Shown: in pieces, positions 6,331-33,295 of the stretch | How the letters are laid out: every line of letters starts with the position of its first letter | Numbering within the stretch: the first letter of the stretch is position 1 | Assembly (NCBI GenBank): GCA_002224055.1 | Contig: AZLU01000027.1 | Coordinates: 1 to 33,295 of the forward strand | Source: Pezizomycotina sp. ARF18 | Taxonomy: Eukaryota; Ascomycota | Length of the DNA stretch: 33,295 nt | Direction: 5' to 3' | Translations under genes and position numbers: made by a program | Notes under the pieces: generated by a model | The model's input: the letters and a program-made list of their open reading frames with translations, nothing else | Database searches by the model: none | What the model was told of the DNA's origin: nothing

Positions 6331-6846
6331 ACCAGCACGAATAACGGTGGTATTATTATATGACAATAGCAGCATTATATGTCTATCAACATGACATGTT
6401 TGTACCAACACTGGATGTTCGCACATTGGATGTTCGTGTCAACATCCAGTGTTCGTACCGACATGGATGTTCATGTCAACATCGTATGTTCGTATCATTA
6501 TATGTCGTATCAATATTACGTGTGCGCTCCATTGGATGTCCGCATTAGATGTTTGCACAAACATTGGATATACTTGTCAACATCGCATGTTATATCAGCA
6601 TATGTTTGTCTTAACATTACATGATGGTGGCAACAATACATGTTTGTTCAACATATCATGATTGGTAAATATACATGCAAGATATGATTAGCTTGTAGTG
6701 AACATCACAAGTTTGTATCAAACATTACAGCACGATATAATCGGCTTATAGCAGCGATTGACCAAAGTTAGGATGAATCAAAAGATACAAAAGGTGCTTA
6801 GAAAAAAGCGCCAGGTAGGATAAGAGAGGCAAGATTAGCCGTCCTT
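6331..6846. repeat. Dispersed element, copy 1 (long), with internal minisatellite
   Basis: It begins at CCAGCACGA and carries an array of imperfect units of about 20-25 bases containing GGATGTTCG and CAACAT motifs (about 6360-6660). It ends in a conserved 85-base tail (6761-6845) that finishes at AAGATTAGCCGTCC. The same head, units and tail occur again at 13135-13352, where the array is much shorter; the two tails agree at roughly 85-90% of positions by eye. The tail lies only a few bases from the stop codon of gene A, so it may form that gene's 3' UTR. No terminal inverted repeat or coding capacity is visible. The overlapping open frames here (6360-6661) exist only because the unit lacks stops. 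Confidence 0.75.
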
Positions 6847-6852
6847 TTTTCA

Positions 6853-8145
6853 TCATGTTTTCTTCCTCTTCCTCTTTTCTTCCTCTTTGTCTTTGTGACG
6901 TTTGGCCGTAATGGCCTTGTCGCCCTCGGAGGCCTTCTCAGAGACGTAACCAAATACGGGGCTGCCGGCGAGGATCAAGAGGCCCCGCGATAGATATCCA
7001 TTTTACCACCATGGTGGCGTATTTCAGCCCAGCGAGGTCGGGAGCCGTAACTCCCATCGCGTCGGCCGTACCTCCGACGAGAGCGACGCCGGCTTTGACC
7101 CAGTTCGCCCAGTCTGACCATATATATATCAGTCCTATAAACACTGCGGAATCTACCTTCCAGTTTTGCGAGATAACACGAGATGAGGAAAATTCCCATA
7201 CCAGAGTCTGCTTACCAGTATTGTTCGCAAGCTGCATGGAGAGAGTCTCCAGGTGGAATTTGTGTTTTGATATACCGATGGCCCGGCCGGTAACTTCCTC
7301 TTTGACTATACAGGTCGTTGGTTTTGTTCGTTAGCGAAACGTAGAATGGTCATTTTTAAGGAAGCTCAGAGAATTTTCCCTTGCCGCCGCTGAGGTCCTG
7401 TAGCTGGTTCCTAGCACGTCCAGCGCATTGGTCAGGACAGTCATTAGATCACCCTCTTTGGGGAGGTGTTTGAGGAGTGTGTCGACTTCAACTCATATTT
7501 AGATCAGTACACCGGCCGAACCAAAACGCGGTAGGATTTTAATGGTTTTGCCTAAATTTTATTTAACAAGCTTGAGATTTCCGGAACTTACTTTTGGTCT
7601 CGAGTTCGGCTAGATTTACATAAACAAAGAGAGCGTATTAGCGGGCGTGTAACTTGGTTAGGTGGGATTTTGAACCGCTCAAAGGATGGCTTTGAGCATG
7701 AAACTAACCAATATGGGAATGTTCGCCAGCGGAGGCCACAAGGATCCTGACTTCCATGCGCAAGACCGCATTTTCGGTGCCGAGTTTCATCTTCTCCCTG
7801 AGAAGTGCCGCAATTGTCCGCCTCCACTGCCGCCTTCTCCACCTTGAGTGTTTCGTTCTTTTGGATGAGGGGTAGCCCGATTTGATTCGATTTTTGGCTT
7901 TCGCATTTGTAAAAGTCGCGTTGATTGTTTCGAGAGTCGACTTATCCGCTTCCAGAGATCACTTGTTCAATTGTAAGTTTCTGCGTTATCAGACGCGAGA
8001 GTAACGACACCAGACTCTAGAACGCGCATCTCCTCTTCATCTTCACAATCTCCGTATTAAGGTGCTCATTTTTTGCGGCGCTTCTGTTCAAGAGCTTGTT
8101 TTCTTCCTTCGAGCTGCTGCGCTTTCCCCGCTATGGCGACTTTAA
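6853..8145 (-). CDS. Gene A: coiled-coil protein with C-terminal hydrophobic segment, paralogue of gene B
   Basis: Not a family I recognise. Read on the minus strand: a heptad-rich, charged N-terminal part (KAQQLEGRKQALEQK, EEEMRVLESGVVTLASD, GTENAVLRMEVRILV) ends in phase 1 at 7709. Intron 7708-7610 follows, then an 18-nt micro-exon (7609-7592, ELETK), intron 7591-7492, an exon from 7491 to about 7411 (VDTLLKHLPKEGDLMTVLTN), a third intron with a CGCTAAC branch ending at 7306, a 90-nt exon (7305-7216), intron 7215-7144, and a last exon. That last exon encodes WSDWANWVKAGV, a hydrophobic segment (MVVKWISIAG, then after one frameshift LLILAGSPVFGYV) and a highly basic/acidic tail ending KRKRKKT, stop at 6853-6855. 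The N-terminus is not resolved and frameshifts occur in the coiled coil. The donor of the third intron is not visible; one lost base near 7410 would explain it. The product is probably membrane-anchored with a cytosolic coiled coil (inference). Confidence 0.6.
7592..7609 (-). other. 18-nt micro-exon of gene A
   Basis: It is bounded by acceptor AAATCTAG and donor GTAAGT and flanked by introns of 99 and 100 nt. It enters and leaves in phase 1 and adds residues around ELETK, joining two coiled-coil segments in frame. The equivalent exon of gene B (11420-11437) is also exactly 18 nt and in the same phase. Confidence 0.65.
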
Positions 8146-8299
8146 CAAGCCTCAAGTCCACTCAAGTCCCCCTCCAAAAGAAATGTTCCAGAGCCGAAAA
8201 TTATAAGGACAACTTACTATTGTTTTCCTTGATTTCTTTTATAATTCAGCGTGTATTGATCCCGTAGGTTAGTCCAAGGTTTGTGGTTTTTTGATGAAA

Positions 8300-8313
8300 G
8301 GGGGGGGGGGGGG
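8300..8313. repeat. Poly-G run (14 G)
   Basis: Fourteen consecutive G in otherwise AT-rich DNA upstream of gene A. Runs of this kind are prone to length error. Confidence 0.9.
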
Positions 8314-8429
8314 AAGGCAACTGAGGTACTGGTTTTCTCGCCGATTTTCTCGGGAAGTGGTGATATGCGTGTCGACTGCAATCTCAAGAACTCAAAAGGG
8401 CGTTTTTTTTTTACGCGCATTACTCAAAC

Positions 8430-9055
8430 ATCATGGTAAGTTTGTTTACGAGGGGGGGATAACTAGTCTCGGAGCCTTCTCCGAAGGAAATAGCCGCCGA
8501 TGAAAATCTGACAATTTGTGACTTTTGATAACGGTATTTTAACCGTGGTGGGCAGGCTGGTTGGCCTTGCGGGCTGCCAGCTCCCCAGTGCAACTGCGTT
8601 TCATCTTCCGAAACAGAAGGGTGAACCAGAGTGGGGGAAAAAGAGGTTTATTCATCAATACCTTTAGAGAGTGAGATATAAAATTGTATATAGATACTTA
8701 GTTTTGTATTTGGTGGCCGCAGAACAAAAAAAAAAAAAACGTTGGGGCCTGGCTTGCCTACCTAAGTGGAGGGTAAAATTTGGTTACCAGAACCCACACA
8801 AAAAAAAAAAAAAAATTTTTTTTTTCCGTATTAGTAAGCAGAAAGTTAGCCTCTTTTTTTTTAATCTTGTGTCTTCCGCTATTATAAATTTAAGCCCTTC
8901 CTTCGCTTCTAAAAATACCTTTCCCCTTTCCCAATAACGCCACAAAAAAGCAAAGAATCGCAAATCAGTCAAAAAAAAAAAAAGAAAAAAAGAAACCAAA
9001 TCCAATCATCACCAACAACCATCGTCAATCAACAATAAAACCTCTATCTATCACG
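8430..9055. other. Divergent intergenic region between genes A and C
   Basis: This separates the 5' ends of gene A (-) and gene C (+), so it should hold both promoters. It carries A/T homopolymers, notably 16 A followed at once by 10 T (8800-8825), and an A-rich, CAA-rich leader just before the gene C start (8960-9050). The leader is typical of a fungal 5' UTR. No other gene is seen. Confidence 0.5.
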
Positions 9056-9596
9056 ATGTTCCCTCTTCTTGGGAGATCCTTGCACCGCCTCCCAAAGCTC
9101 AGGAGACAGCTGAGCAGCATCACTCCCGAGAGTCTTGATACTGTTCATATAGCTGCTAACGCTGCCGCCGCCGTAAGCTCCCATTCAAATTGGATTGGTT
9201 TTTCAAAACATCCTTCCTTTTCCTTTGTTTCTTCCCCTTTTCTAATAACATCCGAGTATTTATCATGTGACCATCAGCAAAAGGCGGGTATGTCTACCTG
9301 GTCGAAAGCGGGCGTCGGTATCGCCGTCGGCATGGCGACCGGTATCTCTGCGGCGATTATCGGCGTTCTGGGTTCTGCATACACCAGCATCATTCAGGGA
9401 GAGGTGAGTTGAGTTCAAACGTTATCCGGTTTTATAGGGTTGTTTTTAAACCTCTGGGCTTATTCATCTTTTTTTTTTTTAGTTCGTCACGATCAAGACC
9501 ACTTTGAAGGAGCACACCGCCAAATTTGAGGCTCAGTCAACGAAGCTTGAGTCCCTGTCGTCCAAGCTCGACACCCAATCGGAAAAAGCTCAATAA
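9056..9596 (+). CDS. Gene C: small predicted mitochondrial or membrane protein, glycine-zipper segment plus coiled coil
   Basis: An intact three-exon gene: 9056-9172, 9278-9403 and 9483-9596 (117, 126 and 114 nt). Both introns are phase 0, with donors GTAAGC and GTGAGT and acceptors CATCAG and T-run AG. The product is 118 aa. Residues 1-20 are basic and hydroxylated without acids (MFPLLGRSLHRLPKLRRQ), as in a mitochondrial presequence. Residues 44-80 hold STWSKAGVGIAVGMATGIS and further small residues with G/A spacing typical of a glycine-zipper membrane helix. Residues 83-118 (KTTLKEHTAKFEAQSTKLES and on) look like a short coiled coil. The family is not recognised. The W-x-K-A-G-V stretch also occurs in gene A, and W-A-K-S-G in gene B. 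Unlike most genes here it has no frameshift. An ATG at 9290 could give a shorter form without the presequence. Confidence 0.75.
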
Positions 9597-10608
9597 CGTT
9601 ATCGAAATTCTCAAGAATAAAAAATAAAATCCATCCCTTCCTTTTTTTTAAATCACGCATCCCGATTTTGTCTAGTATTAAAAATTCCCATTACATCAAC
9701 ATCAAGCAAGTGGTGGTTTTTTTTTCTTTTTCTTCTTCTTTTCCCCTTTTTTTCTGCTGTATTTATCGTATCCCCTTTTTGACACGACAAGGGAAAAAAA
9801 ATCCGGATGTTACTTTTTTTTTTTTTCATTTATCATGGGTCCCGTTTATTCATTATTGTTCTTCCTTTCCTATTAGCATCAAGCAAATGGTGTTTTTTTT
9901 TTTTCTTTCTTTCCTACGAAAGGGCGTTTTTTCACTCAATCCTACAAAACTTGCTATACTAGGACCTTCCATTGTTTTTTTCCTCCCTTCTTTCTTCTTG
10001 TAGCCTTATTACAGGTATGAACCTTTACAATGGTGGTTTAATAATAGGCGTTTATTTTATCATTCAAAAAACCCTTGTTCTAAAAATGGCGTTGCTGTGT
10101 TTCTTTATATAATATATTAGACCTTCTTTATTATCAAAGAAGACGTATTCCGGAGGTATATTGATTTTGTTAATAATCAGGCGGTTTTAATACAAAACCG
10201 ATTGCTTTCTTTTATTGTATATAACCCAAAGGACAACTCGATAGAGAGAGAAAGTTATTTTATTTTTTATTTTTTATTTTTTATTTTTTATTTTTTCCCC
10301 CTAAGCGAAGACACCAAAAGCATTTTTGCTTCTGAAAAGAAATACATTTTTGATTCAACGCTAAGAGAACTGGGTGCGGTGAAATTGATTCCGAAAAATA
10401 AACTCCTGCTTCAAATTTTATACCTCTTAAGTTACCATATCTGGACGCGAAATCACCGCCGTAGTCACTTTCCTAGGTAGTCCCCTGTGTTGTCGCCTGA
10501 TATTATTATTGTTGTTTGCCTTTGCTGTTGCCACCGCAGGTGCAACTGCTCCCTTTCATGAATAATATAGTAATTAATTTAACCCTCCCACAATTGAACC
10601 ACTATTTG
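9597..10608. other. Convergent intergenic region between genes C and B
   Basis: It lies between the 3' ends of gene C (+) and gene B (-). It is T-rich with several T runs (9717-9835, 9894-9904). It contains a hairpin-capable CGGTTTT/AAAACCG pair with a 5-nt loop (10182-10200) and the heptamer repeat at 10262. No convincing gene is seen. Confidence 0.55.
10262..10296. repeat. (ATTTTTT)5 tandem heptamer
   Basis: Five perfect 7-base units, with A at 10262, 10269, 10276, 10283 and 10290, ending at CCCC. Confidence 0.95.
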
Positions 10609-11740
10609 TCACAAAGGGGTGAGTTCGTTGCCTATGTTTATTTTGGGAGTAGGTCCTTTGACTTTCCCTTTACCGTCTCCTCCCTGGTCAGTCTTTGGTA
10701 CAAGATCCTCTCTCACCTTCGCCTGTTCCTCCTGTTTGTTGTCCTTCGCTGTGGCCAGCAGGAGCTTAGGCTTCGGACCTTTGTACCAGCCGTGCAGCTG
10801 ACAGCCTAGCGCGAAGATTATTCCGGCGAGGCCAACCCATTTCATTGTGCAGGTCGCGGTGCGAAGGCCCGTTGAGGTATCCACTGTGGCTCCTAATGCA
10901 TCTCCGATAGGGTTACCTAGGCCTAATCCGTTCTCAAGTATCAAAGCCAGACTTTGCCCAAATAATAAAATCCTCATTAGCGGACAACGGTACAGTCCCC
11001 AAGCGGGGGAAAGTGAAAATACGGTAATGGAAGTCGGGGAAGCTCACCAGCTTGATCATCCGCCGTACTTTTCCCTTGTAAAAGACGTATAACAGCTTCT
11101 AATTGATCCTTTTGGTCCAATATCCTCCCGCGAGAACCTTCAAGTCACTGCTTTCTGAAGGAAATGGAAAGCAAGACGTCAGTGCACGCGATAGTGATAT
11201 GCTTTAAAGAACGATAGATTGGGGCACTTACCGGCATTGAGTTTATCTAGAGTGTTCATGACTGTATCGAGTTTTGTACTTGGATCCGCTTTGTCGCTAC
11301 CACCCACCAGCGCCGTGAGGACGTTGTTCACTGAAACCAATGACATGTCAGTATTTCTATAGAGGAACGAGCCACCATTATAGCTTTATTTAAAGGAACA
11401 AGGGACTTGTGGCCCTTACGCTTCTCATCGATGGTGTCTAAATTAAAAAAAAAAAAAAAGATCTGGTTAGTGTATAGGGACGGATAAGTTTCATTGTCTT
11501 GACTTTTGTCGAAGGAGACATAGATTTGAACTTACCCAACGTTACCGCAGGTTTCTTAGATGGGGCTATCGCGTTTTGCTCAAGGTTCACCTGGCGTTGA
11601 AGAGCATCTTTTGCGGTTTGCTCGAGGTCCAGCTGCTGCTGGACTGACGCCGACTGCTGCCAACGTCTTTGAGGGCTGCCTCAAGACTGAGGAGTTTTCC
11701 CTAGCCTTTCTAAACCTCGTACCTCTCCCCCCCCACTTCA
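10609..11740 (-). CDS. Gene B: coiled-coil protein with C-terminal hydrophobic segment, paralogue of gene A
   Basis: Unrecognised family. Read on the minus strand: exon 1 part, about 11740-11536 (SLEAALKD, then after one frameshift QQQLDLEQTAKDALQRQVNL), ends in phase 1. Intron 11535-11438 follows, then an 18-nt micro-exon (11437-11420, TIDEK), intron 11419-11331, a 99-nt exon (11330-11232, NNVLTALVGGSDKADPSTK and DTVMNTLDKLNA), intron 11231-11155, and an exon 11154-11048 (DQKDQLEAVIRLLQGKSTAD). That exon is 107 nt, one base short of the 108 expected. After a last intron with an unclear acceptor, the final exon gives IIWAKSG, ENGLGLGNPIGDALGATVDT, a hydrophobic stretch (MKWVGLAGIIFALG) and a Lys/Gln-rich tail (TAKDNKQEEQAKVREDLVPK), stop at 10609. 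All resolved introns are phase 1. The 5' end is unclear: a CTAACAG acceptor near 11745 suggests upstream exons I cannot find, or a 5' truncation. Confidence 0.6.
11420..11437 (-). other. 18-nt micro-exon of gene B
   Basis: It sits between acceptor AATTTAG and donor GTAAGG, phase 1 on both sides, with flanking introns of 98 and 89 nt. It encodes TIDEK plus the two split codons (Asp before, Leu after). It matches gene A's micro-exon in length, phase and position between coiled-coil segments. Confidence 0.7.
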
Positions 11741-13134: not shown

Positions 13135-13352
13135 GCCAGCACGATATGACGGCATCATCATTGCATGACGATAGCAACATTACATGTTCGCACCAACATT
13201 GGATGTTCGGACATTACATGTTCGTATCAATATTACCCAATATATTTCAGCTCGATGGTCTGTTGCCACCAAAGTTAGAATGAATCAAAGATACAAAAGG
13301 CACTTTAAAAAAAGCGCCAAGTTAGGAAAAGAGAGGTAAGATTAGCCGTCCC
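13135..13352. repeat. Dispersed element, copy 2 (short)
   Basis: The head (CCAGCACGA...), a few GGATGTTCG/CAACATT units and the 85-base tail (13268-13352, ending AAGATTAGCCGTCC) match copy 1 at 6331-6846 in the same orientation. This copy is about 300 bp shorter because its internal array is contracted. No neighbouring coding sequence like gene A is visible next to this tail. Confidence 0.75.
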
Positions 13353-13754
13353 TCTATCTTCAATGTTTCAAATTCGACCGAAAAACCAAAACCCGAATCA
13401 GGAAGGACCATTTCCTGAACCGTAAAAAAAGAGGTGTCTAAAATTTTTTTTTCTTTTCCACAAGAATATTTTCAATATGGAAAACAGCCCGAGTCCCCGT
13501 TTCTCTGACAGCTAGTAGTATTCACAAGAGCTACAAGCGTGGGGGTCCATTCTAATTCTTAAGCAGCTTGAAGAATTGGAGATTAAATAGCCTTACGAGC
13601 GAGCATGTGATGGTCGAGCCTATCGAGTTCGAACGAGCAATCAAGTGCTATTATGTTTTATAGCTTCCCACGCCTTATAAGGCCTTCGAGAACTCCACCT
13701 ATCAATCAATATAAAGAGTATAATAATATACAATTTCAAATTGGAGGAAATCAC

Positions 13755-20034: not shown

Positions 20035-21670
20035 GGAAATCCTTCTCGTTCACTCTAAGTTCAAGTTGCCGTACATTACTGCACATCGCGAGTAGGGAAG
20101 TAAACCTCTTCGATATTCGTTCGCATAGAAATCTATGAAGAACTTGGGAAGCAGCTAGTCTTTTTTTTCTTTTTTTTTTTTTCACATTGCGTTGCTTTAT
20201 ACATTCAGCAGAGCAAAAAGTTTCTGATGGTGATTCAGAGTAGATGCCTGTAAAATAGGGATCTCCTTATCGTCTTCCCCGTTTTTGTCTTTCTTCTCTC
20301 GCCGGCCTCTTTTCTTTCTTTTTTTCTTTCTATTTATTTTTTATCTTTTTACATTCCTCTTAACTTACTATCCGTATTGTATTGATTAAAAGCATCACAA
20401 ACAGGTTGCATTGAATCCGTAACAACTCCGCTACCCACGTTCTCAGCATTTAGCCCGTCTTGACTTTTAGATCCCCTCATAGCTTCTCTTTTCCCCCCTT
20501 TCCCCCTTTCCTCCTTTCCCCTTTCTCTTTTCTTCCCTTCCTCTATTTCCTTATTCCTTTCGTTTCTTTTTTCCTTCTTGTTTCTTCTTTTCTTTCTTTC
20601 TTTTTTTCCTATCTTGTTTTAAACTTCATTTGCTTCATCAAACGCGATTTGCACAACTGTCACAACTATACCAATATTGGAACGGTCTCTCAGACGGGTC
20701 ACGATACTAAGATTGCTATACAAAGTTTAACGGGCACATATAATATTAATTGAACAATGAAAGAAATACTCTAGGAATAATGTATAGCCGTTCAGCCTTT
20801 TTAGAACTTCTCGTAACGTCTAGTAGCATTGAGAAGATTCTTCTATGATGCTCTAAGCTATAAGAACAAGCATATTTGGAGAAAGAGATGTCTAATAGAA
20901 GGTCTAGAATATTTACTAAGCACTTCAAGCAGCATTTATAAAAGATTTGTCACGAATGCATTCAATCTACCTCCGTAAGTATAAGACCAAAAACTTATCT
21001 ACCCCCCTTTTTTTTTTTCGCTACCGGCCGGCAGCCGCTGGAAAAGGGAAAGCGCGGGTAAAGAAAAGGTTAGAAGTCACGTGCCACCTACAGCACGCGT
21101 GATTTTACTTTCGCTTATCGAGAATCTCATAATCAAAAATCAAAAATCAGAAAAAAAAAAAAAAAAAAAAAGGCTAGGAAATCTCTCTGTCCATTAGGAG
21201 ATATATTTCTCAGCTTTGGCTAATCATACCGGTTAAAACATCCCCCCCCAAATCCGATTAATAACTAAAAATTATTGGAACGGCAACCAAAAAAAAAAAA
21301 AAAAAGATCCTTTGAAAAAAAAAAAAAAAAAATTGTTATCGCTGACAATTTAATTCCACTAGGACGGGTTCTCCTTCTTTCCTCTCTCACGATGTCGCTA
21401 TTGCTACCGAACGAAAGAAGTATAAATGGGCTCGCCGTTTCCCTCCTTGCCAAACATGTTCTCATTCAGAAAAACATCAGCATCAATTGCATTCATATCC
21501 ACAGTTGCTTTACTGTTCTCCATAATCGCCTACAATATAGATATCATTTCAAGTACTCTATCAAGAGCATTACTAGCACAATAAGCACCACCCATAACAA
21601 CAACTCCAGCTTCGGCAACAGCAAGTCAAAAACCCCCACTGGTGTTAAATACCCCGAATTCCCAACCGCA
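20035..21670. other. Intergenic region between APP1-like and pirin genes
   Basis: It is pyrimidine-rich, especially 20465-20610 where the + strand is almost only C and T, the kind of tract seen in fungal promoters. It also holds A runs (21151-21170, 21288-21305, 21317-21332) and a CACGTG at 21078-21083. An open frame from ATG 21458 could encode a short hydrophobic peptide ([20 protein letters not shown]) upstream of pirin. It may be a leader exon or chance; I see no proof. Confidence 0.5.
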
Positions 21671-22527
21671 ATGGCCAAGTCCTCTGTTTTCAAATTCATC
21701 CCCGTCTCTCTGCCTCCCGCGGTATGCCAACCACGGTTGCTCCAGAGCTACCACAGCTTCTCCTTCGCCTCGTACTATGACCCGAGTCAGACCCATTACG
21801 GCCCTCTCCGCGTCATCAACGAGGACAATATTGCGCCGGACGAAGGTTTCGACAAGCACCCACAGCTCCTACGAGATCTTCTCGTACGTCCTCCAGGGCG
21901 AGCTGACGCACAAGGATTCTATGGGCAACACGGAAGTCATGAAACGCGGTGACGTCCAGCACACCCGCGCGGGGACGGGTATTACCCACAGCGAGCAGAA
22001 CCTGCACAAATCAAAGGAGGCAAGCCTTCTACAGATCTGGGTCAGCCTGACATAACTAGGCTCCCGCCCAAGTACTTCACCCGCCACCACGATGAGGCTA
22101 GCAAGAGGGGAACTCTCAAGCACATCGTTGCGCCGATCAAGTCGTTTGCTAAGGACGCCGCTATCCCGGAGCAAGACGGCAAGGATGAGCTTATCCCCAT
22201 CCAGACCGACCTCAACTTTTTCGCCAGCCTCCTACCCTCGGCAGTCCGTTACCCACCAATTTATGAAGAGTGCGGGTGCGAGAAGGCTGATCCTAGCAGG
22301 GGCAGGCTCGGCTACCTGCACCTCGTCATGAGCTCTGGCATCAGGTCCCCAAGACACCAGTACCAGCTGATGGCGCCAAAGTCAAGGTGACCGCGGAAGA
22401 TGGCACCGAGATCGAACTCACGGAGGGCGATGCCGTCAAGATCGAGCCAAGAGATGAGCAAGATCACCATAGAAAGTACAGGCGGTAGGGAGCTGAATTT
22501 GTCTTCTTCGATATGAAGACCGAGTAA
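21671..22527 (+). CDS. Pirin family protein (cupin), frameshifted
   Basis: Pirins are metal-binding bicupins. Members act as redox-sensitive nuclear cofactors or as quercetinases; the role of the fungal branch is not settled. Visible landmarks: N-terminal YANHG and [20 protein letters not shown] (about 21720-21798), [20 protein letters not shown] (about 21800-21859), [20 protein letters not shown] (21865-21924), [20 protein letters not shown] (about 21938-22000), LQIW, then [18 protein letters not shown] (22195-22250) and a C-terminal [33 protein letters not shown] and [10 protein letters not shown]. The metal ligands expected from human pirin, HxH and HxE, correspond to the HP(H) at 21857 and HSE at 21987-21995; the second His of the first pair is lost to a one-base break. 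Other breaks lie at RGY, GW, after LQIW, mid-domain and near the C-terminus; several are mended by one extra G or C. The ATG at 21671 gives the usual short lead-in. Confidence 0.85.
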
Positions 22528-27571: not shown

Positions 27572-30447
27572 ATGAGCCACGGCCTCTATATCCCTCCCGA
27601 ATCCGACCCAGAGGCCTTCCCGCCCGATATTTCTCTTCCAGGAAATTGCTCCCCATCGGACATCATCTTATGCTCGTCTCCTGAACCTGAAGATATCGAT
27701 GACGCTGAGGGCAGCCTTGCTCTTGAGCGGAGGTCAGCAAAACGTAGGCGGATCGAACAACATGCGCGACGCTACCTGCGAGGCGACACACTTTACATTC
27801 ATTCCGCAAGGCTAAGGGGCCCTTTCACTGATAATCCGTGGAGCAGAGCGAAACTCAAGGAAAGGCCGGAGAATGTGCAAGCTAAGGCACCAACAAGTGT
27901 GGGAGCTGCTGCTGCGGGGAAAAAGAAGGCTGACGCTGGAAAGAAGGCACAGCAGACTAATCTCAAGGGAAAATTGAAATCTTCAAAGCCAAAAATTACT
28001 GTTGGAAGCCAAGAAACGGAGAAAACAAAGGATGAAGGTCTCGATTTTTCTTCGACGAAGGGACCGGCTGCCTATACCAGTGGCGACTGCTAAGCCTGCG
28101 AAAAGTTATGCGCGAGCTCCACTTGATACATTCGTGGCAGACTCTCCAAAAATCCCACGAAGGCTGCCGCCTACGGAGTCGATACCTTCTACTTCGCAAC
28201 AAATGAGGGAGGAAATGGAGGAGAGTAAGAAAGAGATGAGGAATTCTTCAGCTCCAAGACAGTAGATGAACGCCGTCCGTCCCTCGAAGATACGCCCACG
28301 ACAAAGCTTCGTAATACCTTATCCCGTGTGCCGACGACCAGAGGTGGACATCACGAGCCCCTTCACCATCCCCGCATGCGAATGCCCGAAAATTCAAGGC
28401 ACCGTCCAGAGCTAGGAGCGAGCTGGCCATGAACAACCGCACGGTCAGGCCCCGCTTTGTTCCAGTTGCCGGACAGGACGGGCACGCTGCAGAAATCTAA
28501 AGTGCTACCGGCTGCTGGGCAACAAATCTGCTGTTTGGCCTAGCGAAACGGCAGAAGCGCAATTTATCCGTGACAGGCTAGGGAGCCAAGTCGCCGTCAT
28601 GACCCTCTCACCTTTTGATTATAAACCAACTAATGGAGCAGCGCCACGAAACACACGGCCGCAGAAGTAATCTCCGAAGCCGAAAAAACGCTGCCGACAA
28701 TGGTGCCAGCAGCTCAGAGGATATTATACCCTTCAAAGCAAAAGAGGCTCCAAAACGGAGGCGCTCGAATAGTGGAATAGCAACATTTTCTCCAGGAACA
28801 GCGTACCGCGGAAAAAAAGAAGCTCAGGTAAAGCAGGACAAGGAAGCGACTGCTTCCAATCGAACCCACGGAAGAAGAATCGGAGGAAGACGATTGCATT
28901 GAGCCTCCTCCGCCGAAAAGTCTCGGAAAACCAGTGCTAAAGCGGGCGACGCCCAAGAGAAAGCTGGTCCAGCAGTGCCAGTCAAGAAGGTTGCGGCAAA
29001 ACCAAGGAGAAACCTTCTAAGAAGCAGAATGAGAAGCCGAAAGCGCTACCGAAGGCAAAGCCCAGGGCTAAGGCAAAGGCGAAGATTAATAAAGCCGCAG
29101 AGTATGCCTCATATTCACAGACTTTGGTCTTCATCCTTATTCAGTGTTTCTAAAAGATTAATGTGTAATTTTTTCATAGGCAAGAAAAACCCGATGCTCC
29201 CGTTCCCGTTCCTCAGCTACAGGAGGTTAATCCGGCCCTCAACAAAAATATCATCGTAAATGATCCGATTGAGGCAACTCCTCAAACTTCGAAAGATCAA
29301 GCTCTAAGCAAACCTGATCGGACAGAACAAGTGTTGATAAGTCTGAAAGCAAGGATGGGCAGCTCAACCACCGGCAAACCACCGAGAGTCGATAGTCGAG
29401 GCAGTCCGGCCGCAAGAGGGCATACGTCTCCGAAGCGCACACGGCTGTCTTGACAAGCCCGGCCTGGAAATATGTCTCCGGTGTCCCCATTGGATGAGCT
29501 TATGGTGTATGATCACCCGGAAGCATTCCCTGGGACTGCCCATCACCTCTGGAAGTCCGCAAGATCATTAAAGCCCCATCGCCGTCACGCAAGATTGTCG
29601 AAACAACTAGTCTACCGGGCAAATCTAACACGACTATGGCTCCTACTTCGCGAGCAGATGAACCACCACCTTCATCAAAACTGACGTCGCCTCCGGCATC
29701 GGACGAACTAGATCGCAGGAGAGCACGGTAGAGATGTCTAGCGGGCGATTCCGGGACGCCTTAATGCACTCGCTCAGAAGATACAATCAGCACAGAGGAC
29801 ATACTTCCTATAGAGGACATAGCCACTCCGCATATTCCACTGAATACACAAGCAGAGTTCTTAGCTGCCGCCAATTCGTTTAATAGATGCTTAGCCAATT
29901 CACCAGTCAAATTCACAGCTGATACACCGGCTCCTATTCAAATGCCGCTAATCACTGCACCAGTTTTACGGCCATCAACTCGCCTGATCGTCCAGCCCTT
30001 GTTGATGAAGAGCAAACGAGGCGAAAACTGTTCCGCACAAGCCCACTGAAACATGGGCATTTTACTCCATTTAAGTCTATCGACCAGGTCACCCATCTAA
30101 GAAACGGCTCTCTCTTGTGGGAGGATCTCAAGCGAACGCGTCGTATAGTGCGGGTTCTTACAGCCCTCTACGTACTCGCCTTCGTTACTGGACAGAATTC
30201 TGGTCCTATGTCCGCCGAAGGTGTCGTTGGTGATAACAATCTTCCAGGGAGCCAGTCGATAGCGATGGGACTAGGTAGGATCGAGTCTAGTAGTTGGCTT
30301 GACGATGTTCTAGGCCAAAATGAAGAGTTCCTAGAAAGGGATTCGTTTAATCTTGACCAGGAGGCAAAGGCTGAAGCGGTGACGAAAACACCGATGACAA
30401 CGCGCAAGGGGAAGATAATCACGTCGCGCTCAAGGATTTCTACCTAG
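27572..30447 (+). CDS. Long Lys/Pro-rich fungal protein of unknown function, frameshifted
   Basis: It starts MSHGLYIPPESDPEAF at 27572. The N-terminal block contains SKRRRIE-like basic residues and YLRGDTLYIHSARLRGPF followed by NPW. This arrangement resembles the conserved N-terminus of large low-complexity Pezizomycotina proteins sometimes labelled protamine P1-like; that match is from memory. Then come SYARAPLDTFVADSPK (28109-28156), an acidic-to-basic segment (TEEESEEDDCIEPPPPKSLG), a Lys/Ala/Pro-rich run (KALPKAKPRAKAKAK, about 29039-29085), a phase-2 intron 29103-29179 (GTATGC...TCATAG), Ser/Pro-rich sequence (GHTSPKRTRLS), an NTQAEFLAAANSF motif (29847-29885) and a C-terminal LLWEDLKRTRRIVRVLTALY with WLDDVLGQNEEFLERDSFNL. 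Lysine-rich content suggests a nuclear protein (inference). At least seven frame changes interrupt it, so the exact end is uncertain; 30447 is the last stop in the final good frame. Confidence 0.6.
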
Positions 30448-31493: not shown

Positions 31494-32457
31494 TCATGTC
31501 ATCTCATGAAGTCCATCAAATCTAGACCGAACCTCGCCAGAATTATCAGCGCGGTGCTTCTCTTTTGATAGTAGATCCGAGAGCGTTCCTTTCTTGCGTT
31601 GCTTCGCGCGCTTCTTCGAGCCGGCATTCGCGGGAGAGGACGCTGCCACCTGAGCTGGGTTACTACCCGTGGCCGGTTTAGCAGCTGAAGCTACCGTTCC
31701 TGTTCCTGCTGTGTGCTTTTCGGTACGTCCGTTACCGTTGGAGTGGCGATAGTGGCTGATGACAGTAGATTGGCCACAGCTTTGAGGGCCGGTACCGTGG
31801 GAGCCGGCACTGCGTGCGTTGTCTTGCGGTCGCAAAGCAGGCAGGTATAGACTCCCGTAAGCCTCGCTTCGTCTTAGCCACCTTATTTTCCGCCGATTTA
31901 ATCTTCTTCTTCTTTTGGCGTTTCCGCCTCTTCTTCTCTTGCATCGTTGTCTGATCGACGACATCTTTAACGCGCGACATATGTTTGGCTTCTTCCCGAC
32001 CATCTTCTGCCTGGTCGAGTTGTTCATCGGTTGAAGAACGCCCCGCTCTACGGCTGCGCCTCCACTATGCTCGCCTTTGCTTCCAATTACTTCCCGACCT
32101 TTTGCTCCTCCAGCATGTATACTATGCGGCGCGCCTCATCCACCTCCTCAGTGCAACTACCACCACGGGTAACCCTTTCAAGCCGTTCCGTTCCTGCCTC
32201 TTTGTCGCCTTCTCTGACCTTGTAGCCTCGTATTCTCACCTTTGCTGTCCAACCGGGGACGAGGAGAGAACCACAGCAGGCGCACTGTGACCTGAACACT
32301 GCATTCCGATAGCGGGACGTTCGATGCCGCAGCAGCCGAGCGCAGGCGACAGGCAATGTGCGCTGAGACGCCGGCGCGGAGGCAAAGAGGAGACGAGACG
32401 CAGAGTGCAGATGCTGCAGCTTCCTGTGGTCTGGTTGGTGGGATTGAGGGACGCCAT
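31494..32457 (-). CDS. Rpr2/Snm1-type RNase MRP/P zinc-ribbon protein, frameshifted
   Basis: Proteins of the Rpr2/Rpp21/Snm1 family are small basic zinc-ribbon subunits of RNase P (pre-tRNA 5' processing) or RNase MRP (rRNA processing) in the nucleus and nucleolus. Read on the minus strand from ATG 32457: MASLNPTNQ, then LQHLHSASRLLFASAPA and SAHIACRLRSAA (helical N-terminus), first Cys pair in CACCGSLLVPGWTAKVRIRG (about 32285-32225), a variable acidic region, a Lys-rich stretch (QEKKRRKRQKKKKIKSAENK), second Cys pair in GVYTCLLCDRKTTHAVPAP (about 31845-31790), then an Ala/Thr-rich linker and a basic C-terminus SKKRAKQRKKGTLSDLL, typical of fungal members. Both CxxC pairs needed for zinc are present. 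Several one-base breaks split the frame; the stop at 31494 belongs to the last frame. The Ser-Ala-His-rich N-terminus looks more like Snm1 than Rpr2, but I cannot decide. Confidence 0.72.
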
Positions 32458-33295
32458 TTTTTTTTTTTTTTCAAAGTCCTGTTCTAAATTATTGATTGAC
32501 GATGCTTCAGGTCTCTTTCATGTGCGTGTGTGGGGGGTAAGCGTCTCCATCCTGAAATTTTTGAAACTTGAGAGCAGGGGAGGTAGTGCCCGTTCATTGA
32601 ACGAGATGGTATCCAAGTAGTAATAGATTGAAAACAATAATGTAAGGTTTAGTCCGGGATTTAATTCTTTGAAAATAAATAAATAAAAAAAAAAAAAAAT
32701 TTGGAACTGCTAAATTGAGCTTGTAGCGTCAGCAGCTTCCCGGTTGAAAAAAAAAAAAAAAAAAATCCGTTTTTAAACCGAACGCCTTTGCTTATCTTTT
32801 CAGAAGAAAAAAACCTTATAGGCTCTCTCTCCTCGGCAGCGAGATCTTCTCGACACATTCAACAACGCCAGCTACATTGCGCAAGTCTTCATTGGCCACA
32901 TGTTAAAAGATTTAATGCGGCTCATACTAGAATACTAGAAGATATCCTCTCCCTCCTTCTCATTTGCTGGAAAAGATGAGTTTTTTCCTTGCATTAGTAA
33001 GTATTTATATTTCTTGCATAAAAAAAGAGCGAACAAGGTGGTGGACCGGATCCACAGATAATGATACACCTCATCTTCCCTTTTTCTCTCGCTTCGACTG
33101 TCCGTATCCAGAGTTTCTTTCCGATTTTCACGGAATATACTCGAATGTCCAGTTAGAAGAACGGCAGTTACTTCAAGAAATCATTTCTGATATATCCTTC
33201 AACTTTAAAGAATAATAATAAATAAAAAAATCAAAAGGAAAAAGGAAAACCGCGGAATGATCCGGTATAGCAATCCACGAGACATACGCGAAGAG
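32458..33295. other. Intergenic region at right edge, with one weak ORF
   Basis: It holds the 5' flank of the Rpr2/Snm1 gene, including a T run right upstream of its ATG (32459-32471), and A runs at 32687-32699 and 32747-32765. A + open frame from ATG 32976 to 33215 (LPFFSRFDCPYPEFLSDF) has some protein-like character but no recognised domain or splice signal. I leave it as a weak candidate. Confidence 0.4.

Follow-up and report, generated by a model that had tools for sequence, protein, structure and literature searches.

A probable 18-nucleotide micro-exon shared by two old paralogous genes of Pezizomycotina sp. ARF18

Introduction

Two genes on the minus strand of a 33,295-nucleotide (nt) stretch of DNA from Pezizomycotina sp. 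ARF18 (the window: positions 1-33,295 of contig C27, AZLU01000027.1, in a genome assembly of 46.36 Mb and 408 contigs) raise the question of whether an exon of merely 18 nt, found in the same relative place in each, is a genuine micro-exon inherited from a common precursor, and whether genes that can be read only across several frame breaks are intact at all. Gene A extends from about 8143 to a stop codon at 6853, and gene B from about 11688 to a stop codon at 10609. The explanation that we consider probable on balance is that an orphan fungal gene was duplicated in tandem long ago to give A and B, which have since diverged strongly, that they encode membrane-anchored helical proteins, that the micro-exon is real, and that the frame breaks are mainly errors of the assembly.

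The shared micro-exon

In both genes an acceptor AG, 18 nt and a donor GTAAG follow one another on the minus strand (7609-7592 in A and 11437-11420 in B), in the middle of the stretch of 217 nt (A) or 205 nt (B) that separates the helical exon from exon 3. The initial annotation had placed the micro-exons here, flanked in A by introns of 99 and 100 nt (7610..7708, GTTAGT...CTAG, and 7492..7591, GTAAGT...GAG) and in B by introns of 98 and 89 nt (11438..11535 and 11331..11419), and both the coordinates and the splice signals were confirmed. The micro-exon of A (7592..7609) encodes AELETK and that of B (11420..11437) DTIDEK, in each case with split codons and with phase-1 junctions on both sides. 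At the sequence level these are the features of ordinary fungal micro-exons, namely a length of 2-10 codons and canonical signals on either side. When the gap stretches (216 and 204 nt used) were each subjected to 5000 dinucleotide shuffles, a candidate exon of 6-30 nt arose in 5.9% of the shuffles for A and 6.5% for B, candidates of the same length in both arose in 2 of 5000 shuffled pairs, and candidates of the same length with positions within 15 nt arose in a single pair. The real B stretch additionally holds a second candidate of 43 nt within the range of 6-60 nt.

An improbable alternative is that each gene has a single intron of 217 nt (A) or 205 nt (B), the 18-nt match being a coincidence or an unused relic. 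Such an intron would be tolerated by the reading frame, which survives removal of the 18 nt given that the flanking junctions are in phase 1, and would accord with the unlikeness of the two 18-nt sequences (see below). Coincidence is opposed by the lone match among the 5000 shuffled pairs, and undivided introns would be longer than any of seven others in this assembly, sized by way of gaps in its HSP70, HSP70-like and actin genes (74-141 nt, median 105), whereas the introns of the micro-exon model measure 75-102 nt. The introns themselves have diverged between the genes, with no likeness in intron 1 (equalled by 688 of 1000 shuffles) and a weak one in intron 2 (51 of 1000), suggesting that the shared splice signals are not merely the residue of a young duplication. 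On the whole, the 18-nt exon is probably real in both A and B. Its splicing would presumably proceed by ordinary intron definition across the short introns on either side, and its inclusion would extend the end of the protein's helical part by six residues. Use of the micro-exon, or of any other exon of these genes, as a switch is not supported.

Paralogy of genes A and B

The proposal of the initial annotation that A and B are paralogous is upheld most clearly by their last exons, the alignment of which scores 88, where shuffles average 27.4 (z 12.2) and none of 2000 attains that score; similarity by chance was rejected on this ground. With the last exon of A as query, a search of the 46-Mb genome recovered A itself, split into two pieces, and otherwise only B (30%, query 8-83, E 5.6e-4), and here again a chance resemblance is not borne out. 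The last-exon plan previously described, comprising W-x-K-[AS]-G, DA[LM]G, a KW-containing hydrophobic segment and a charged tail, recurs in both genes, with the qualification that W-A-K-S-G of B lies in another frame than its DALG part and is not given by the same bases in the DALG frame. Exons 3 and 4, when joined, are more alike between A and B than most shuffles (31 of 2000 reach the score); as they are only weakly alike, homology in this region rests on order and position. Compared as DNA, the last exons show no significant likeness (125 of 1000 shuffles do as well), and this loss of likeness indicates that the duplication is old. Judged by their sequences, A and B are thus real paralogs and old duplicates, in which case the 18-nt exon would predate the duplication and have been kept in both copies since.

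Several observations weigh against this explanation. The shuffle test relies on exon boundaries that were picked in knowledge of the finding, the DNA of the 18-nt exon of A does not resemble that of B (841 of 1000 shuffles as good), and AELETK and DTIDEK have one residue in common at the same place. The genome search is not reciprocal, with the last exon of B recovering A at E 0.194 only, and searches of contig C27 by tblastn with single pieces did not reveal the A-B link at E 5 or better. The micro-exon together with exon 3 aligns between A and B with a score reached by 161 of 2000 shuffles, and exon 4 alone with one reached by 1462 of 2000. Because the 18-nt sequences are unlike and the single-piece search missed the link between the genes, we allow the micro-exon-free alternative a small share of probability and hold the tandem-duplicate explanation as no better than probable.

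The same searches bear on further copies. Single pieces compared by tblastn with the window and positions 33001-231100 of C27 gave no match at another locus better than E 0.05, the best matches being of Lys-rich stretches to the tail of A, and of A to gene C (described below); having missed the A-B link too, this is a weak test for further copies. Likewise, a genome search with exons 3-4 of B found B alone and missed A, indicating that distant copies may escape such a search.

Frame breaks and the integrity of the genes

The frame breaks in A and B have to be considered against the state of conserved genes in the same assembly. An HSP70 gene on contig C49 shows 6 frame changes in 1783 nt, with no space for introns, and a second on C70 shows 6 in 1609 nt; an actin gene on C382, to which 8a5d is the closest among solved actins, shows 3 in 1075 nt, and an HSP70-like gene on C303 shows 3 in 2162 nt with intron gaps counted in. 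The residues of this actin would suit a filamentous ascomycete. In 15 of the 18 frame changes in these four genes the direction is that of a missing base. The assembly is likely to be of an error-rich long-read type. With the two HSP70 genes only as the yardstick (12 breaks in 3392 nt, or about 1 per 280 bases), gene B is at the background rate, with 3 frame changes in 737 nt where 2.6 are expected (P 0.48) and a possible fourth at its last intron. Gene A, with 7 in 907 nt where 3.2 are expected (P 0.045), somewhat exceeds it. The counts for both genes are soft, as the break positions were set by the analyst's reading of helix-like pieces.

The excess in A speaks for decay, and we regard it as unlikely that one or both genes, chiefly A, are pseudogenes whose splice signals are relics. 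Start codons were found for neither gene when both strands were read, leaving the 5' ends undefined, and a dispersed repeat lies at the stop codon of A; both points would suit this possibility. The frame breaks on their own were rejected as proof of it, given that the conserved HSP70 and actin genes are broken too; B, moreover, is broken no more often than expected, and splice signals and membrane segment have been kept across a deep divergence. The tandem-duplicate explanation would thus have the breaks in A and B arise mainly as errors of the assembly. A more general consequence is that, with frame breaks this common in conserved genes, exon lengths modulo three are not to be trusted to the base, and the present case illustrates how fragile arguments from exon symmetry become where the frame breaks roughly every 280 coding bases.

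A further broken gene is present in the window itself, a pirin gene at 21269-22055 that is split across two frames, both matching the profile (positions 12-47 with E 0.0038, under the cut-off, and positions 39-108 with E 9e-21).

Gene models

Gene A begins, as far as recognised, with a charged, helix-rich exon (7709..8143) that has five frame changes as read and a donor at 7708. After the micro-exon and intron 2 follow exon 3 (7385..7491; 107 nt as read, with one internal frame change), a probable GC-AG intron of 79 nt (7306..7384), exon 4 (7216..7305; 90 nt), an intron of 102 nt (7114..7215) and the last exon (6853..7113), which carries W-V-K-A-G, DAMG, the KW hydrophobic segment and the charged tail and has a frame change near 6984. 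The length of 81 nt formerly assigned to exon 3 was rejected, because an exon starting at 7491 would then have neither a GT nor a GC donor at 7410; the GC donor at 7384 instead brings its end level with that of exon 3 of B in the protein alignment. In gene B, the first recognised exon (11536..11688) is a Gln/Leu/Lys-rich helix with one frame change, headed by an acceptor-like AG, so that another exon may lie upstream. Beyond intron 2 lie exon 3 (11232..11330; 99 nt), an intron of 77 nt (11155..11231), exon 4 (11048..11154; 107 nt as read, with one internal frame change), an intron of about 75 nt (10973..11047) and the last exon (10609..10972), with W-A-K-S-G, DALG, the KW hydrophobic segment, the charged tail and a frame change near 10950. 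The initial annotation had a phase-1 intron before this exon, which did not hold up: the acceptor ending at 10973 is uncertain, and the junction is not in phase 1, nor consistent in phase, as read. Its lengths of 90 or about 108 nt for the fourth exon are right for A, with B reading as 107 nt with a frame change. Branch-like CTAAC and CTGAC words were noted by eye close to the acceptors.

Immediately downstream of A lies the dispersed repeat mentioned above, represented by a query stretch of 481 nt (6380..6860, minus strand) that contains an inverted repeat at 6385-6474 and occurs again at 13144-13368. Parts of this query match at least 28 further places, 25 of them on other contigs, with 68-89% identity; most copies that contain the start begin to match 6-9 nt after the stop codon of A, and a few reach over it.

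Predicted proteins and family searches

The N-terminal part of both products is charged and helix-like, and a 19-residue hydrophobic stretch around KW, with a mean hydropathy of 1.76 in A (where one X is scored as 0) and of 1.50 in B, is followed by the charged tail. The most economical reading is that A and B encode membrane-anchored proteins with a helical arm. Each gene would probably specify a charged helical protein held in the membrane by the C-terminal KW segment, with the N-terminal helical part projecting from the membrane, where it might serve as a tether or as an arm for self-association. A structure model of the last exon of B places a 32-residue helix at the hydrophobic segment, with scores (pLDDT 51.6, pTM 0.22) too poor for a fold, which counts against reading more from it.

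The earlier statement that no known family is recognised in these genes stands for the libraries searched. Pfam gave no match for pieces of A or B; NCBIfam gave weak matches only, the best for B having E 0.24 and 11.3 bits, where the cut-off is 40; the PDB, searched by sequence with the last exon of B only, and plasmids, searched by tblastn with one frame of A only, yielded no relative; and none of 600 pattern matches in viral contigs or 356 in prokaryote genomes was confirmed. "Orphan" is accordingly used here in the sense of an orphan within these libraries, which do not cover fungal genomes in general.

Exon symmetry and the coiled-coil proposal

The initial annotation further held that every internal exon is a multiple of three with 1-1 symmetry, and that skipping or duplication of such exons could tune the length of a coiled coil. 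As read, the first claim applies to four of the six internal exons, namely both micro-exons, exon 4 of A (90 nt) and exon 3 of B (99 nt), and fails for the two 107-nt exons (exon 3 of A and exon 4 of B), which may be indel artefacts of the assembly. The second claim finds no support. The exons measure 6, 30, 33 and 36 residues, the last on the assumption that both 107-nt exons are really 108, and dividing these lengths by 7 gives remainders of 6, 2, 5 and 1; none being a multiple of the heptad, skipping would break the heptad register even as it kept the frame. Of seven A and B pieces, six show no more than an ordinary heptad periodicity and the remaining one is borderline (3255, 252, 3034, 3325, 683, 4874 and 3866 of 5000 shuffles reach the observed value), and "coiled coil" is hence a label for these genes and not a result.

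The same observations bear on the very improbable possibility that alternative splicing of the symmetric exons serves to produce protein variants, as a fungal analogue of micro-exon genes (MEGs). The four symmetric exons, and the other two if their indels are set aside, would permit it. Against it stand the broken heptad register and the share of micro-exonic sequence, which is 18 of about 900 (A) or about 740 (B) coding nt as compared with about 80% in schistosome MEGs (PMC5825161). We give scarcely any credence to a more elaborate version, a lineage-specific fungal family of membrane-anchored helical proteins in which all exons between the helical exon and the one with the membrane segment, beginning with the 18-nt exon, are phase-1 symmetric and are skipped or included to alter a stalk, with gene C as a third, rearranged member that has the W-x-K-[AS]-G membrane motif in common with A and B.

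Gene C and other features of the window

Gene C (9056..9596, plus strand) lies between A and B and is a small, seemingly unbroken gene. It has an intron at 9404-9482, in phase 0 as read, and possibly a second before 9270, through which the frame stays open. Its N-terminus we take to be presequence-like; W-S-K-A-G-V heads a strong membrane-spanning segment (mean hydropathy 2.13), and its tail shows a heptad periodicity reached by only 16 of 5000 shuffles. The alignment of C with A is weak (8 of 3000 shuffles score as high; tblastn E 0.05-0.07), that with B is unconvincing (120 of 3000), and a genome search with C found itself only. Among 466,506 six-frame residues read from the window and C27 33-231 kb, W-x-K-[AS]-G with 15 open residues after it is present three times: in A, in C, and at 28464 (minus strand, not hydrophobic), the motif of B being left out of the count since a stop follows in its frame. 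Because its intron reads as phase 0 and its parts stand in the opposite order, C is not called a paralog, and its relation to A is weak and unproven.

Elsewhere in the window, a Rpr2/RNase P subunit domain was detected on the minus strand at 32087-32470 (E 5.2e-10), and Rfam and tRNA searches of the window found nothing.

Comparison with known systems

Three known systems offer points of comparison. In schistosome MEGs, the products of which are secreted or membrane-anchored and vary through alternative splicing, about 80% of the coding region consists of symmetric exons of 6-36 nt (PMC5825161). The symmetric micro-exon of A and B falls within this range of lengths, and their hydrophobic segment may anchor the product in a membrane, but each has a single 18-nt exon in about 907 (A) or 737 (B) modelled coding nt; lacking the prevalence of short symmetric exons in MEGs, they were rejected as members of that class.

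The adjacent intron-like signals of A and B also recall the stwintrons of filamentous ascomycetes, reported in Hypoxylaceae and Xylariaceae (PMC8469720, PMC12403724). In a stwintron of the [D1,2] type, the internal intron splits the donor of the external intron between its first two bases, and its removal creates the external GT donor. This arrangement was rejected for the present genes, in which the base after the first AG is C (A) or A (B) and not T, such that no GT would form at the junction.

A further parallel is with the cytochrome P450 genes of Phanerochaete chrysosporium, a multigene family for which exons of 2-10 codons are described (PMC1184071). Micro-exons of this size are thus already known in fungi, and the 18 nt (6 codons) of A and B lie inside the range. 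The present case differs from the P450 genes in the protein, probably in the phylum, and in that the micro-exon is common to two diverged paralogs. If expressed, the pair would represent an orphan fungal membrane-protein family together with a micro-exon kept through deep divergence.

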